Part shown: in pieces, positions 14,500 through 36,189 of the stretch
Layout of the letters: each line of letters opens with the position of its first letter
Numbering within the stretch: the first letter of the stretch is position 1
NCBI RefSeq assembly: GCF_015240255.1
Contig: NZ_CP061205.1
Location: 2,687,501 to 2,751,500 of the forward strand
Length of the DNA: 64,000 bases
Direction of reading: 5' to 3'
DNA from: Kordiimonas pumila
GTDB taxonomy: Bacteria; Pseudomonadota; Alphaproteobacteria; Sphingomonadales; Kordiimonadaceae
Made by a program: the position numbers and the translations under genes
Notes under the pieces: model-generated
The model's database searches: none
The model's input: the letters and a program-made list of their open reading frames with translations, nothing else
Told to the model about the DNA's origin: nothing

Positions 14500-14976
14500 T
14501 TAATGTACCTCAGCATAATTTTTCCCAGTTTCCTTTAATAACCCGGCAAGTGCCTCGTTGACCAGAGCTGTCTTTGGATTCAGTTTTTTAGCCTTATTAT
14601 AATCACTTACAGCGCCGTCCATATCGCCCAGCGCGCGCTTTGCATTGCCGCGGTTTAAATAGGCCTGCCAGTACTTACGATCCGTTTTAACCGCTTTTGT
14701 ACATGCCTCAATCGCGGCCTCAAAATTGCCATTGGCATATTCAACAATACAGAGGGTATTTAAAACCGGTAGCAGGCGCTCTTCACCAGAGACACTTCTG
14801 GCTGCCCGGCTATAATATTGGGCAGCTTTTATAAGGTCACCAGCCCGCACAGCAAGCTCCGCTTTGTGAACATTGGGGTCTTCTTCAAAATAGTACACTT
14901 GCGCATGAGAGGCTGCGGTAAGTGACATCAAGCCTAAGCCTGAGGCTATAATTACATTTTTAAAGCTGTGTATCAT
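14500..14976 (-). CDS. Exported tetratricopeptide-repeat protein
   Basis: 158 residues with a Sec signal peptide (IIASGLGLMSLTAASHA, cleavage likely after SHA near residue 25) and about three TPR units, the clearest being KYWQAYLNRGNAKRALGDM and GAVSDYNKAKKLNPKTAL. Predicted periplasmic adaptor with no catalytic motif. First gene of a two-gene operon with the MAPEG gene, divergent from the LysR regulator, which probably controls it. Confidence 0.75.
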   Translation of the reverse strand: MIHSFKNVIIASGLGLMSLTAASHAQVYYFEEDPNVHKAELAVRAGDLIKAAQYYSRAARSVSGEERLLPVLNTLCIVEYANGNFEAAIEACTKAVKTDRKYWQAYLNRGNAKRALGDMDGAVSDYNKAKKLNPKTALVNEALAGLLKETGKNYAEVH

Positions 14977-30037: not shown

Positions 30038-32149
30038 TCACGGGGTATTGTCCGCCTCATCATCACTGCCTTCTGCTTCAGGCTCACCCTCCTCTGTTGC
30101 ACCGTTTTCTTTCTCAACGTCCTCCAGCGCTTTTGCTTCTTCCGCTTTCAAGCGCTCTGCTTCAAGCTTTGCTTTTTCTTCCATTTTTATGGTCACGGCG
30201 CGTTCTATATCTGCCCTGCGCTGCACTTTTTCCGCTGTTTTACCTGATTCAAGTTCCAGCCATTCTGCTATTTTACCATCCAGATATTCAATAAGACCGG
30301 CATTTCCGGCTGCTAGTTTCTTCGCTTTATTGGCCTTAGTAATGGCAGATGAAGTATAGTCAATACTGGCCAAAGCCTCGGCATGATCGGCAAGAATAAT
30401 AGCTGAGTTTGGATAAGCATGCTCTGCCTTTTCCAAAAGCCTTATCGCATCGCGCCCTTCGCCCAGTTCCAGATAGGTGCGCCCCAACATGCCTTCCACA
30501 TGGTGATCATCAGGGAAACGCTTAAGCACAGCTTCAAGGTCAGGCTTAGCTCTGGCATAATTGTTTATGCTAACATAGGCTACACCCCGGTTTTTAAGGG
30601 CTGACATATAATCAGGCGTAATACTTAACGCTTTTGAATAATGTACAATAGCCTCTTCAAAGCGGCGCTGTTTATAGCGTACAGCCCCCATCAGGTTGTA
30701 AGATAATGCCGCATCTGGGTGTTGTTCCACCATTTTAGTAACAACTTCCTCCGCTTCAGCAAGCTTGTTACTATCAAGCAACATATTTACCAGCAACGTT
30801 GTACTGGTCATATCAGTGTAAGAAGCACCAGAGAGTTCAGCAAGTTCCGCTATAGCCTGCTCTTTATCGCCTCTAGAGTAATCTGTCAGTGCCAGCCTGC
30901 GGGTCAATGAATCTATCAGTGCCTGATCTACAGGGTCTTTGCTTTCTGCCAGTTTTTTTGCTTTTTTAAGCCACCCCCGCATGGCAGGTACATCATCATT
31001 CATGCCTGTCACTGCAGATGCCAGCAAATGCGCATCAAGGTCTGTGCTATCTGCTTTCAATAAGGGCTCCAAAGTCTGCAAAGACTTTTTGGCATACCCG
31101 CGCCTACCATAACTTTCAGCTAGAATAAGCCGGGTTACACGATCACTTGGAACAAGCTTAAGAAAGTCTTCAAGGTACGGTATTGCGGTCACATATTTAC
31201 CAAGCCTGAAAGTCACATGCCCGTATGTTCGAATCGCAGGAGGATAGCGCCGGGTTATTTCCTGTGCTCTTAACAAAAGCTCCTCTGCCGTTTGCAAGTC
31301 ACCCTCAGTCGCCAACATTAAGGCAGAATAAAACCTCGCCATAGGGTGTTCTGGTGTATTTTCATACACTTTTTGAAGCGCCTCACGGGCCAAGGGATAA
31401 TTTTCTTCATCCACATAAATACCGGCTAGTTCCAGATACGCCAGGTCATTCGGGGATTGCAGGCTAATAGACTTCTGTAAATGATTTTTGGCAGTTTCAA
31501 AATCAAGTTTGTATTTTGCTGTTGCCCCCAAAAGATATTCTATAAGAGGGTCGTCATCCGTTAGCCCCGCCGCTTTTTGTGCCAGCGTGTGTGCACTTTC
31601 AAAGCGGCCCATCATCAAATCAAGCTGGGCAAGGCCCGCGTATGCTCTAAATTTTTCAGGATCTAGCTTGACAGCCTCATTATAAAACTCTGCGGCTTTT
31701 TCAAATTCATTATCTTCAAGGCTGATATCGCCTTTCATCAATAGTGCTTCGTAATGCTCGTCACCTGTATAGTCATATTTATCAAGCTCTTCCTCAGCCT
31801 CCTCTAGTTTACGCTGCATCATAAGGGCTTTGGCCATGGAAATGGATGTGCCAGCTTCTTCAGCACCGCCTTTACGCGCTTTTTCAAGCGCCACTTCGGC
31901 AGCAACACCGTCAAGCCGTTTCATAAGGATATCAGCCTCCTGAAGGTGGTCTTCCTTATTGGCAACCTCCAGCACATCCTGCTCGCGAATAATTTTTAAG
32001 GCCTGATCATACTCACCTCTATCAATGAGTGCCTGAACATCTGCCGTATCAAAAGCAGTATAGTCCACTTTATCTTCCTCGTCGTCACTGCTGCTACAAG
32101 CATGCAAAGCGACCGCTATTGATATAAGTGCTACTTTACTGCGTATCAT
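30038..32149 (-). CDS. TPR-repeat lipoprotein-like protein, PrsT-like (copy 1)
   Basis: 703 residues. N-terminal signal with a lipobox-like LHAC (VALISIAVALHACSSS), then many tandem TPR units through residue ~600 (e.g. ALLMKGDISLEDNEFEKAAEFYNEAV; SYNLMGAVRYKQRRFEEAIVHYSKAL), and a highly charged C-terminal tail rich in Glu/Lys/Ala that ends in an acidic run. It resembles the TPR lipoproteins found with PEP-CTERM/exosortase systems (PrsT), though shorter. It is divergent from a PEP-CTERM protein gene and collinear with the second copy at 33178-35268, including SSAITKANKAKKLAAGNAGL near the end. Probably acts in the periplasm or at the membrane in sorting or polymer export (inference). Confidence 0.78.
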   Translation of the reverse strand: MIRSKVALISIAVALHACSSSDDEEDKVDYTAFDTADVQALIDRGEYDQALKIIREQDVLEVANKEDHLQEADILMKRLDGVAAEVALEKARKGGAEEAGTSISMAKALMMQRKLEEAEEELDKYDYTGDEHYEALLMKGDISLEDNEFEKAAEFYNEAVKLDPEKFRAYAGLAQLDLMMGRFESAHTLAQKAAGLTDDDPLIEYLLGATAKYKLDFETAKNHLQKSISLQSPNDLAYLELAGIYVDEENYPLAREALQKVYENTPEHPMARFYSALMLATEGDLQTAEELLLRAQEITRRYPPAIRTYGHVTFRLGKYVTAIPYLEDFLKLVPSDRVTRLILAESYGRRGYAKKSLQTLEPLLKADSTDLDAHLLASAVTGMNDDVPAMRGWLKKAKKLAESKDPVDQALIDSLTRRLALTDYSRGDKEQAIAELAELSGASYTDMTSTTLLVNMLLDSNKLAEAEEVVTKMVEQHPDAALSYNLMGAVRYKQRRFEEAIVHYSKALSITPDYMSALKNRGVAYVSINNYARAKPDLEAVLKRFPDDHHVEGMLGRTYLELGEGRDAIRLLEKAEHAYPNSAIILADHAEALASIDYTSSAITKANKAKKLAAGNAGLIEYLDGKIAEWLELESGKTAEKVQRRADIERAVTIKMEEKAKLEAERLKAEEAKALEDVEKENGATEEGEPEAEGSDDEADNTP

Positions 32150-32406
32150 TTGTCCCCGCTCCCTAAATGCGCTGTTTGGAATACCATCTTTTAAGAACTA
32201 TAAGGCCCTTTTGCCACTGATAAACGTCATCTACAACCCAACAAAACAAGCTTTGATATTTCATTAAAAAAAGCTGATCTAGTAAAATTCTTTTCCCATA
32301 AACCCATTTTTATGCTACTCCGCACAGCAGAATGAATATTTAGGGTAATATTCAGCTTTAACCATCTGTTAGTGTTCATCTTATAACATACTGCTGTTAA
32401 CACAGA

Positions 32407-33069
32407 ATGGGTAAAAAAATGAAAAACTTTGGATTTTTAATCAAGTCTACCTGTTGTGCTGCACTGGTAGCATTTGCCAGTATCGGCGCTAAAGCCACAT
32501 ATCATTATTATGATATTTCTGCTGATGCCGGTTCCTATAGCCCAATTGTACTTGGTGAAGACCTTCAACTAGATGCTTGTGGCTCCGATGTACATCAGGC
32601 TGTCGCTGTTGGTTACACATCCAATGAAGTTTATAACATCTGCTCTGAAATTCCGAGTTATTCGATTTTTGGCCTGCGCTGGGAAATTACATTTAATAAT
32701 GTGACACAGGTGATTGGCGAATATCTCTCCCACAACATGGCAAATGGCCTTTCGATTTCAGTCGCAACCGGGGCTGGAACCTTAATATCTCAGGCAGGTA
32801 GCTATTCCATCGGCCTGTGGGTTGGCTTTGCAGACAATTCCAGTTTCTCCCTACCTTGCTATGCGCCTTACAGCGTTGGCTATACAGGGGACGATTCAGG
32901 GTATATTCAATCGCAAAGTGGATACCGGAACCTAGATTACGATACAGCGTCCCTATCAGTTACAGCACCCGCTGCTGTACCAGAGCCTGCCGCAGCGTTT
33001 CTCTTGCTGCCAGCCCTCATTATACTATCGCGCAGACAGCGCAAGTTACAGAAAGCAGGCCGCGCATAA
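32407..33069 (+). CDS. Secreted PEP-CTERM sorting-domain protein (copy 1)
   Basis: 220 residues. Signal peptide (STCCAALVAFASIGAKA, cleavage after AKA near residue 29) gives a mature start TYHYYDI. The middle has four or more Cys and YSPIVLGEDLQLDACGS, shared with copy 2. The C-terminus is a classic sorting tail: VPEP, a hydrophobic stretch (AAAFLLLPALIIL) and a basic end (SRRQRK). Exosortase would cleave at PEP. No clear Shine-Dalgarno site is seen; ATG 32407 or 32419 may be used. Divergent from the TPR gene, with a terminator after it. Confidence 0.85.
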   Translation: MGKKMKNFGFLIKSTCCAALVAFASIGAKATYHYYDISADAGSYSPIVLGEDLQLDACGSDVHQAVAVGYTSNEVYNICSEIPSYSIFGLRWEITFNNVTQVIGEYLSHNMANGLSISVATGAGTLISQAGSYSIGLWVGFADNSSFSLPCYAPYSVGYTGDDSGYIQSQSGYRNLDYDTASLSVTAPAAVPEPAAAFLLLPALIILSRRQRKLQKAGRA

Positions 33070-33093
33070 TATCCTCCTATAGTTTACGGCATT

Positions 33094-33132
33094 AAAAAAC
33101 ACCCGGCCAATAAATTGACCGGGTGTTTTTTG
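33094..33132. terminator. Bidirectional rho-independent terminator
   Basis: A GC-rich inverted repeat, ACACCCGG with CCGGGTGT, is flanked by an A run on the left (33094-33099) and a T run on the right (33125-33131). It lies between the convergent PEP-CTERM copy 1 gene and TPR copy 2 gene, so it can end transcripts from both sides. Confidence 0.85.
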
Positions 33133-33177
33133 TTTAGTGTTCAGATTTGCTATTCTTAATTTATGTGGCTTCAGGTT

Positions 33178-35268
33178 TTATGGAGCTTCAGAAGCAGATT
33201 GTTCTGATTTTTCCGCTTCCAGCTTTGCCGCAGCTTCTGCTTCTGCGCGCTCCTGCTGCTCTTTTTCAAGCTTTATTTTTTCGGAGACAGCCTCTTTCAT
33301 CTCCGCTTCTTTTTTAGCTCTTTCCGCTTTTTTATCAGCCTCAACCTTTGCCCACTCTTTCATTTTTTCGTCAAGATAAATGGAAAGGCCGGCGTTTGCA
33401 CTTGCAAGGGCTCTCGCTTTTTTCGCCTTTGTAATAGCTGACGCAGTATAACCATCACCAGCCAGGGCTTCCGCATAATCTGTTAATATTAAGGGCGCAT
33501 CGGGTAAAACCAGCTCAGCTTTTTCAAGAAACACTGCAGCTTTTCTATAATCCCCTTTTTCTAGATACGTACGCCCCATGGAGCTAAATACCTGTGCGTC
33601 CGAGGGCAGTAAGATAAGGGCTGCCTCAAAATCTTTAAGTGCATTATCAAACTGCTTACTTGCCAAATATGCCAACCCTCTATTTTTAAGAGCAGAGGCA
33701 TATTCCGAATTATTTTCAAGTGCAGCATTATACGATTCTATAGCGGAGTCTAAATTACCCTGCAGATAATAAACAACCCCTATCAGGTTTGATGCAATGT
33801 TGTTTTCCGGCTCTATTTTTCTAATTTTAGAAACTGTTTCTTTCACCCCATCAAGATCATTCATGCTGAGTTGAACATTCGCAAGGAACATCAAGTTATC
33901 AATATTCTGAGGCTCTTTCTTGTAAAGGTCTTCTAAAAGCGCAACAGACTGTTTGATATCGCCAGACAAAAACCGTGAAAGTGCAATCTTTGTTTCAATA
34001 AGCCGAGCCCTTTGACCTGCCAGCTCTTCCGGCACATTAGCGCTTATTTCTTGGGCTTTCTCAAAATACTCAATGGCTTTACGAAGTTCCCCTTTTGCAG
34101 CCATTGCTGACGCCTGCAACAAATAAGCATCCTGATCAGGTTCTTCCACATCTAAAAGCGGTTTGAGTTTCAACATAGCTTGGTCTGCCATGCCGCGCTT
34201 TGTCAGACATTCAACCAGTTCAAGCCGTACCGTTCTATCACCCGGTATAGCTTCTAAAAACCGCTCAAGCGGCTTTATCGCGGTGCTACACTTATCCAAT
34301 TCGTAGGAAACCATGCCGTAAACTCTGGCGGCAGGCAGATAGTTCTGAGTTAGTTCCCCCGTTAAAACAAGCAGCCTGTTTGCTTCGATGAAATCACCTT
34401 TTCTGGCCGCAATAAGTGCGGAATAATAGCGTGCCATACTATTGGTTTCATCTTCAGCATATACAATATCAAGCTGTTTTTCAGCCGCTTCAACGTTGTT
34501 TTCATCTATATGGATACTAGCAAGCGCAAGCCGGGCAGCAATATTGCTTTCGCGCACTTCCGCAGATTTCAGCAAATACTTTTTAGCCGTTTCCAAATCA
34601 CCCTGATATCGTGCAACCATGCCTGCTGTATATAAAACGATCGGGTCTTCCGGCTGCAGGTCCATAGCCTTATCAGACATGTCTTTCGCATTATCCAAAT
34701 TGCCCTGTTCAAATTCAAATAAGGCCATCCCGGCATAGCCGCGAAAATCGTCAGGGCTTTCGTCAATCGCAAGCTGAAAATACAGTACAGCCTTTTCATT
34801 ATCTTTTTGAATTTTAGCAATATCACCTTGCAGAATATAGGCGTCGGTATAATCTTCCTTCCGCATATCCTTTGCGGAGAGAATTTTTTTAGCGGCTCCG
34901 ATATCCCCTTGAAGGAAAAGCGCTTTTGCCTTTGGGATAAGCAGTTCAAGCGGATCAACACCAGCATCAATCAATTTTTCTATAGCAGCCTCAGCGCCAA
35001 TACCGTCCAGGTTTTCCATACGGATACGAAGTAAAAGCTGATAATCCTCAACAGTGGAAACCTCAAGTTTCTGGCGTTCCAGCAATATAAATAGCGCATC
35101 ATCATGCTTTCCTTCATCCACAAGGTCCGCAAGTTTTTCCACTTTATAGTTTTCATAATATTCAGGTTTTTTTGTTTCCACGTCGCTGTCTGAACAGCCT
35201 GCAAGAAACAGAGAAAGGCCAATAGCAGTATACTGTAATAATTTAACTTTGTGACGCGCGCGGTACAT
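33178..35268 (-). CDS. TPR-repeat lipoprotein, PrsT-like (copy 2)
   Basis: 696 residues. A clear lipoprotein signal with LFLAGC (lipid-modified Cys near residue 24), then tandem TPR units to residue ~600 (e.g. AYILQGDIAKIQKDNEKAVLYFQLAI; ASNLIGVVYYLQGNLDSAIESYNAAL) and a long charged coiled-coil tail rich in Lys, Glu and Ala. It is collinear with copy 1 over the whole length, with conserved YTASAITKAKKARALASANAGL near the end. The ATG at 35268 with GGGGA upstream is preferred. Divergent from PEP-CTERM copy 2 by 183 bases. Probably anchored to the inner or outer membrane facing the periplasm. Confidence 0.82.
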   Translation of the reverse strand: MYRARHKVKLLQYTAIGLSLFLAGCSDSDVETKKPEYYENYKVEKLADLVDEGKHDDALFILLERQKLEVSTVEDYQLLLRIRMENLDGIGAEAAIEKLIDAGVDPLELLIPKAKALFLQGDIGAAKKILSAKDMRKEDYTDAYILQGDIAKIQKDNEKAVLYFQLAIDESPDDFRGYAGMALFEFEQGNLDNAKDMSDKAMDLQPEDPIVLYTAGMVARYQGDLETAKKYLLKSAEVRESNIAARLALASIHIDENNVEAAEKQLDIVYAEDETNSMARYYSALIAARKGDFIEANRLLVLTGELTQNYLPAARVYGMVSYELDKCSTAIKPLERFLEAIPGDRTVRLELVECLTKRGMADQAMLKLKPLLDVEEPDQDAYLLQASAMAAKGELRKAIEYFEKAQEISANVPEELAGQRARLIETKIALSRFLSGDIKQSVALLEDLYKKEPQNIDNLMFLANVQLSMNDLDGVKETVSKIRKIEPENNIASNLIGVVYYLQGNLDSAIESYNAALENNSEYASALKNRGLAYLASKQFDNALKDFEAALILLPSDAQVFSSMGRTYLEKGDYRKAAVFLEKAELVLPDAPLILTDYAEALAGDGYTASAITKAKKARALASANAGLSIYLDEKMKEWAKVEADKKAERAKKEAEMKEAVSEKIKLEKEQQERAEAEAAAKLEAEKSEQSASEAP

Positions 35269-35451
35269 GAAAGCCATCCCCAAAAACTATAATAATTAGT
35301 TAACCTTACAATTCCAGCATTGCATGAAAAATCGAAATTGCAAGTGCTTGTTGATATGTGCTATTATATATTCAATTGTATTTAGAGCACATTATAAACG
35401 GACAGATATATGTTGTCGAATTTAGTGTGTTAGTATCGCCTGGAGTTGGCA

Positions 35452-36189
35452 ATGACGAAAAAAATTATTAGCTCATTCTTTAACAAAAGCGCCATCAAAC
35501 TTGTTGGCGTAGCCGTTATAAGCTTATTTGCGGCACACAGTGCTAGCGCAACCTACAATTATTATTATTGGCAAACACAGCAAGCGGCAGCAAACGACCC
35601 AGACACGGTCAATGGTAATTTGCAGCTTAGCCCAGGTGTTTATGACCCCTTTGTTATCGGCGAGAACATAGAATTCAATGCCTGCAGCACCACATTTGCT
35701 GGCTATTCTCTTTGTGATCTGCCGGATACATCAAAGTTTGTAATTCAGTGGCAAGCCAAAACGCTGGATGGTTCAGGCAATATTGTTCTCTATGATTCTG
35801 GTGTTTGTAACCCTTGGGGCGGCAGCAGCCAAACCGGTGCTTCTAGCGACAGCTGCCTTAACATAACAGTTCCCGGCAACACATCATCCAGCATCTTTAC
35901 ATCAAGTTCGTTTTACATCGGTATTCATATTGCCACACACGCAAATTATTATATTCCCCTGCCTAACGGCGAATGGGGTTATACTGGTAGTGGCGGCGGC
36001 CAATATGGCTGGATGTGGACAGGCATGTCTCTTGTTGAAAGCGCACCCGAATCAGGTGGCGGTGGCGGCGGTGAACCTTCACCTGTTTCCGAACCGCTTG
36101 CACTGCTTCTTATGGGCCCTGCCCTTGGCGCACTTGCCTTTAGAGAGCGTCGCCGCAAGCGTAAAACGTTGGCTCTCGCCTCAGCTTAA
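35452..36189 (+). CDS. Secreted PEP-CTERM-like protein with VSEP tail (copy 2)
   Basis: 245 residues. Signal peptide (LVGVAVISLFAAHSASA) gives a mature start TYNYYYW, matching copy 1's TYHYYDI. The shared block YDPFVIGENIEFNACST parallels YSPIVLGEDLQLDACGS. A Gly-rich linker (ESGGGGGGEPSP) leads to VSEP, a hydrophobic stretch (LALLLMGPALGALAF) and RERRRKRK, a PEP-CTERM-type tail with Ser replacing the first Pro. GGAG lies 6 bases before ATG 35452. Divergent from TPR copy 2; a terminator follows. Confidence 0.82.
   Translation: MTKKIISSFFNKSAIKLVGVAVISLFAAHSASATYNYYYWQTQQAAANDPDTVNGNLQLSPGVYDPFVIGENIEFNACSTTFAGYSLCDLPDTSKFVIQWQAKTLDGSGNIVLYDSGVCNPWGGSSQTGASSDSCLNITVPGNTSSSIFTSSSFYIGIHIATHANYYIPLPNGEWGYTGSGGGQYGWMWTGMSLVESAPESGGGGGGEPSPVSEPLALLLMGPALGALAFRERRRKRKTLALASA

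Follow-up and report, generated by a model that had tools for sequence, protein, structure and literature searches.

PrsT-related TPR lipoproteins encoded beside secreted proteins with PEP-CTERM-type tails in Kordiimonadaceae

A 64,000-nucleotide stretch of the Kordiimonas pumila genome (contig NZ_CP061205.1, positions 2,687,501 to 2,751,500, hereafter the window) contains two divergent gene pairs in a row, each composed of a gene for a tetratricopeptide repeat (TPR) lipoprotein, here called T, and a gene for a small secreted protein ending in a sorting tail, here called S. We found that these T proteins are paralogues of PrsT, that genes of their kind lie next to an S gene wherever this could be examined in relatives, and that both partners have been inherited together. 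Here, PrsT paralogues occur as paired, substrate-linked lipoproteins. In the interpretation that we favour, and regard as somewhat probable, each T-S pair is a cognate cell-surface module in which every S has a T of its own, acting after a sorting step common to all of them.

PrsT was named in 2006, when its genome profile was found to match that of the PEP-CTERM regulatory site, and its role was left open (PMC1569441). In Aquincola tertiaricarbonis, prsT and pepA are both involved in floc formation, and prsT is required for flocs; this 2023 report still calls for a study of PrsT function (PMC9850573). The interest of the T-S pairs is that they make this question directly testable: several PrsT paralogues in one genome, each tied to one substrate gene, provide a natural test of whether the target of such proteins is the substrate, the polysaccharide or the exosortase. 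The pairs further hint at a way in which several surface proteins of a Gram-negative cell could share one sorting enzyme and still have private delivery partners. In our literature search, PrsT, PEP-CTERM and exosortase occurred together in two papers. The search found no literature on Kordiimonas with PEP-CTERM proteins or with an exosortase, but it left out most subscription journals and therefore does not show absence from print.

The two divergent pairs of the window

The coordinates of both pairs are collected in Table 1. A preliminary description of this DNA had proposed them from the letters alone, and both pairs are present where it placed them. T1 and T2 each have a signal peptide, a lipobox-like cysteine (LHAC in T1, read by eye; LAGC in T2) and a charged tail, while the signal peptides of S1 and S2 finish with A-x-A and are followed by TY(H/N)YY at the mature start. 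The two T proteins align over 671 columns with 37% identity (E 5e-131), and the two S proteins weakly but significantly (25% identity, E 9e-9). Both TTG starts are those listed: an ATG lies two codons into T2, and another at position 35452 in S2.

Table 1. Features of the two T-S pairs (positions in the window)
Feature	Position	Strand	Basis
T1: TPR lipoprotein, PrsT paralogue, 703 aa	30038..32149	-	ORF; TIGR02917; TPR models; short-T clade
T1/S1 divergent intergenic region, 257 bp	32150..32406	.	
S1: secreted two-Cys domain protein, VPEP sorting tail, 220 aa	32407..33069	+	ORF; S alignment; TIGR02595
Terminator-like hairpin and T run between the convergent S1 and T2 ends	33100..33131	.	read by eye
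T2: TPR lipoprotein, PrsT paralogue, 701 aa from TTG	33178..35283	-	ORF; TIGR02917; tree
T2/S2 divergent intergenic region, 162 bp	35284..35445	.	
S2: secreted two-Cys domain protein, VSEP tail, 247 aa, listed start TTG	35446..36189	+	ORF; S alignment; tail reading
ORF, open reading frame; aa, amino acids.

The C-termini of S1 and S2 share the layout expected of a PEP-CTERM sorting tail, that is, a motif, a hydrophobic stretch and a tail of Arg/Lys residues. For the motif itself, the earlier assignment holds less well. TIGR02595 (cut-off 16 bits) gives S1 11.9 bits with hmmscan and 16 in the genome scan, and lists S2 in neither; the best tail model for S2, where VSEP replaces VPEP, is IPTL-CTERM with 14.8 bits (cut-off 20.5).

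Many TPR models match T1 and T2. Against TIGR02917, the PrsT model, they score 212.3 and 186.7 bits, both below the cut-off of 312.2, and they cover about 500 of the 899 profile positions. Elsewhere in the window, a 158-residue open reading frame on the minus strand (14500-14976) has a weak match to the T profile (E 3e-9).

Pairing of T with S across genomes

T genes were searched for in 59 genomes, namely the source genome and 58 relatives, at E<=1e-40 and with up to 19 candidates scored in each. Among the 69 matches, 36 had the length of PrsT or belonged to its clade, 2 were pieces at contig edges that could not be classified (G008:C169 and G024:C12; G008 is listed in the same genus as the source genome), and the remaining 31, called short T below, came from 16 of the 29 family genomes examined. 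When up to 40 candidates were scored in these 29 genomes, no further T appeared at E<=1e-60. Complete short T proteins measure 646 to 833 residues; one of the 31 is cut by a contig end (G008:C213).

An S gene adjoins the short T gene in all 31 cases, at a distance of 47 to 380 bp, and the two genes are divergent in 30 of them. By a rough estimate, chance alone would place an S beside something like one T in a thousand. A single genome may hold several such pairs, and G013 and G018 each have four at separate places. A lipobox-like cysteine is found in 29 of the 31 short T. A pattern picked it out in 26, in some of them by catching a cysteine earlier than the likely one, and the other three (w1, L110 and L112) were read by eye.

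Relationship to PrsT

In the T tree, the 31 short T are split from 13 PrsT by a branch with an SH-aLRT support of 98. Because short T is thus placed as a sister clade to PrsT, and because their scores fall under the TIGR02917 cut-off, we classify T1 and T2 as PrsT paralogues and not as PrsT itself.

The source genome, a member of the Kordiimonadaceae of 4.04 Mb in a single contig, has its true PrsT elsewhere, in the XrtA/exopolysaccharide (EPS) region (G000:C1:2280702, G000 being the source genome; 933 residues, 372.9 bits). T1, T2 and T3, the T of a third pair, all score below the cut-off. Like PrsT, short T is a TPR protein of an exosortase A genome, linked to a gene for a protein with a PEP-CTERM-type tail. 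It differs from PrsT in being shorter, in forming a separate clade, in lying outside the EPS locus in the source genome, and in its lipobox, since the simple pattern found none in the 13 PrsT examined. T1 and T2 are TPR proteins with a lipoprotein signal, as PrsT is described in PMC1569441.

PrsT also has an S-type neighbour in the family. The XrtA region of the source genome encodes a 795-residue proline-rich protein whose C-terminal part is an S domain with a VPEP tail. Among the 19 family genomes that have PrsT and a long S-domain protein of this kind (open frames of 696 to 868 residues) on one contig, 18 show the two in divergent orientation and 4.3 to 4.9 kb apart; in the nineteenth the distance is 12.5 kb. 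The long S is not on the PrsT contig in 6 of 25 family genomes, one of these six being the contig-edge piece of G024.

Exosortase A and further copies in the source genome

The preliminary description had proposed to look for an exosortase outside the window, and the source genome indeed has a single match, over cut-off, at 2295172, identified as type A by TIGR03109 (243.4 bits, cut-off 208). With this exosortase present, and with T1 aligning to T2 and S1 to S2, neither of the results that the description had named as fatal to its proposal was obtained. It is surrounded by XrtA-type export, kinase, deacetylase, glycosyltransferase and amidotransferase genes, each over its cut-off, and the XrtA-associated ATPase of the EPS locus falls just under (310.2 versus 324.5 bits). 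PrsK and PrsR, also named in that description, gave no match over cut-off in this genome.

The third T-S pair lies near 938-941 kb; its T3 scores 192.1 bits with TIGR02917, and its S3 17 bits with TIGR02595. Four strong T are found in this genome (372.9, 189.5, 172.3 and 158.8 bits), the next match having 60.5 bits, and a search with the four S sequences likewise pointed to exactly their own four places at E<=10.

Two side observations concern the exosortase and its surroundings. Near the XrtA locus (L015:15475-17589), an Asp/Gly/His-rich protein is followed by what reads by eye as a P-loop HprK-like protein. A second exosortase-like protein, under cut-off and with open frames of 445 to 521 residues, is found in G012 (C1:1685495), G016 (C11:32568) and nine other relatives, and is not listed for the source genome.

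The S protein family

Among 39 aligned S proteins, the invariant residues are two cysteines and the E-P of the tail, and near-invariant positions are G42, G50, S60, G122, G131 and Y133 (S1 numbering). The tail motif of the 31 paired S is VPEP in 28, VSEP in two and VAEP in one. As in PEP-CTERM substrates, motif, hydrophobic stretch and basic residues follow one another, and at E<=0.1 the tail models PF07589 and TIGR02595 match 21 and 23 of the 39 proteins. Unlike these substrates as modelled, S has a two-cysteine domain that is unnamed in the libraries searched: beyond the PEP-CTERM motif, Pfam returned just stray families (each in at most 2 of 39), and in NCBIfam the entries that match many of the S proteins all describe PEP-CTERM families (NF038129 matches 32 of 39); in S1 these matches span residues 143-213 at most and stay far below cut-off.

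The consensus of the domain, LGxDIxLDACGS...C...W...GTYxIxL, is reminiscent of PKD domains. Set against a PKD profile of only five rows in hhalign, the S profile obtained a probability of 4.4% and a score of 21.2, the highest score among 60 column shuffles being 16.7, on which a PKD fold of S is no more than possible. Among solved structures the best match to S was no better than E 0.11. S matches at E<=0.01 occur in 40 of the 59 genomes, many of the weak ones covering the tail part only. Up to 10 candidates were scored in each of 288 other genomes drawn from the class, some of the same order, and none matched S at E<=1e-10.

Co-inheritance of the two partners

The T tree groups T1 with units of G008, G002, G012 and G016 (support 95), T2 with G001 (99) and T3 with G010 (87). 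The grouping in the S tree is largely the same, on weaker support (9 of 28 inner branches starred). Over 29 pairs from 15 genomes, the distances in both trees correlate with r 0.815. When partners were swapped within genomes 20,000 times, the mean r fell to 0.216 and a single arrangement was as high, the unswapped order itself; none of 5,000 free permutations reached the observed value. Single swaps lowered r in 22 of 22 cases, the exchange of T1 with T2 only to 0.795, and the nearest rows in other genomes agree between the trees for 17 of the 29 pairs.

These comparisons, made on sequences, show the T-S pairs as having duplicated and travelled as units; co-inheritance by itself is no proof of binding. 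The tandem layout of the preliminary description holds, but the T tree argues against a recent local duplication: T1 and T2 are not mutual nearest relatives and group with units of different genomes, so the tandem of the window is no fresh copy. The arrangement MFS-[T-S]n-DUF1476-purC of this site (gene names read by eye) is found, whole or in part, in G001, also as a tandem, and with one T each in G010, G005 and G008, the copies in G005 and G008 ending at contig edges.

Replacement of a T-S block between sister species

G012 and G016 are close sister species with about 95% identical DNA. At one T-S locus (L142/L143), identity per 300 bp is 88 to 99% over about 18.6 kb, except in one block of about 2.7 kb (9001-11700 of L142) where it drops to 62-70%. 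This block begins some 60 bp past the T stop codon, covers T and the intergenic region, and enters S to end at about the VPEP codons. The T proteins are 64.1% and the mature S 63.2% identical, while all 27 residues of the tail are the same. At another pair of the same two genomes (L087/L089), T is 98.6% and mature S 100% identical.

The fourfold sites are in keeping with a distant allele having replaced the local one, and not with amino acid selection in place: no more than 55 of 180 are identical in the T of the block, whereas another T compared between these two genomes has 240 of 306.

Two observations on S genes that stand alone, without T, may be placed here. In the solo S of the same two species (L116:3883-4614 and L117:3396-4130), the DNA of the mature part is about 51-57% identical, adjacent windows are mostly at 86-100%, and the tail is nearly identical; it looks as if the mature domain had been replaced in front of a kept tail. 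The two solo S genes of L114:4175-5720, set against those of L115:7027-8572, encode proteins that are 92-93% identical, but their third codon positions agree at only 58-60%, far less than the 81-92% of the other genes compared between these genomes.

A model for T-S modules and its alternatives

How could these pairs function? S would leave the cytoplasm by way of its signal peptide and be processed at the inner membrane by exosortase A, which would recognise the VPEP or VSEP motif with the hydrophobic stretch and basic tail. T, mostly equipped with a lipobox, would be anchored in the outer membrane facing the periplasm. Acting as chaperone, receptor or docking platform, it would bind its own S by the mature domain and either deliver S to the cell surface or polysaccharide matrix or keep it there. 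The residues of the lipobox favour the outer over the inner membrane, and the frequency of the lipobox-like cysteine among short T fits such an anchor. The modules would be paralogous to the PrsT and long PEP-CTERM protein pair of the XrtA/EPS locus, having multiplied and diverged, and a whole module could be replaced with the sorting tail left in place. Given that all S have a similar tail and that one exosortase was found, we infer that sorting is common to them; T would then more likely have its place at a different step, with mature S as its target. The dedicated sorting or export unit of the preliminary description is borne out as a conserved, co-inherited pair, but for the same reason the word sorting is too strong.

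A more general proposal, which we advance tentatively as the less likely side of an uncertain question, is that PrsT-type proteins are substrate-specific rather than general: a shared exosortase would read the tail, each mature domain would have its private outer-membrane TPR lipoprotein, and T with mature S would be swapped as a cassette cut at the sorting tail.

Several observations weigh against a private partnership. S2 lacks the PEP motif; the short T of L106 and L108 lack a lipobox; and the pair of L110 is co-directional, alone among the 31. Nine clear S genes have no adjoining T (two each in L114 and L115, one each in L116, L117, L118, L119 and L122), at seven loci, or five places if corresponding copies in G012 and G016 are counted as one. 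A replaced block of T plus S was observed a single time, in the sole close species pair noticed with short T. In five more distant comparisons, T (54-74% identical) is in every case below mature S (75-88%), and so is the tail (45-76%); a fixed tail with a variable module is therefore not a general rule. Finally, mirrored trees are expected of neighbouring genes inherited together, without any need for binding.

This last point leads to the main rival, in which T and S are linked without interacting: they would be co-regulated through their shared divergent region and travel together, with T serving all substrates alike in the assembly of the envelope or EPS. We consider it possible, though clearly less probable than the cognate module. 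Linkage alone gives concordant trees, and a single recombination tract can span both genes; the existence of solo S, the different pace at which T and mature S change, and the matches of T, below cut-off, to PilW and LapB, two TPR proteins with envelope roles, all agree with it. It accounts less well for the S neighbour of every testable short T, for the four separate pairs of G013 and of G018, which seem redundant if T is general, and for a replaced block that ends at the S tail and not at a gene boundary.

Alternatively, T-S pairs could be variable determinants of self/non-self recognition, or exposed to phages, whose alleles are exchanged under diversifying pressure. The replacement of T and mature S between sister species, that of the mature part before a kept tail in the solo S of L116/L117, and the many copies per genome would suit this scenario. 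Yet the near identity of L087 and L089 and the conservation of mature S in more distant species are unlike a strongly diversifying receptor, and we find it improbable. Least likely of all, and by our estimate very much so, is that T is a substrate-specific adaptor of exosortase A acting on sorting itself, as its kinship to PrsT and the profile match of PMC1569441 might suggest: the replaced block stops at the tail, the part such an adaptor would be expected to read, and the lipobox residues suggest the other membrane.

Intergenic regions and the PrsT locus

PMC9850573 places pepA upstream of prsT in Aquincola and describes it as RpoN1-dependent; the likeness to our pairs is a TPR lipoprotein gene adjoining a PEP-CTERM gene, whereas T-S pairs are mostly divergent, paralogous and often several per genome, with no sigma-54 signal that we would claim. 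Across the 31 intergenic regions GG-N10-GC was counted 27 times, where shuffled sequences averaged 17 and 3 of 200 came as high, and a stricter pattern 3 times against 1 (14 of 200), which we judged too weak, the shuffles being of single bases only and the set including near copies. On plasmids, T1 had no match at E<=1e-30. The PrsT/long-S region at the XrtA/EPS locus (L144/L145) varies from 69 to 98% identity per 300 bp between sister species, more than the flanks of the T-S locus.

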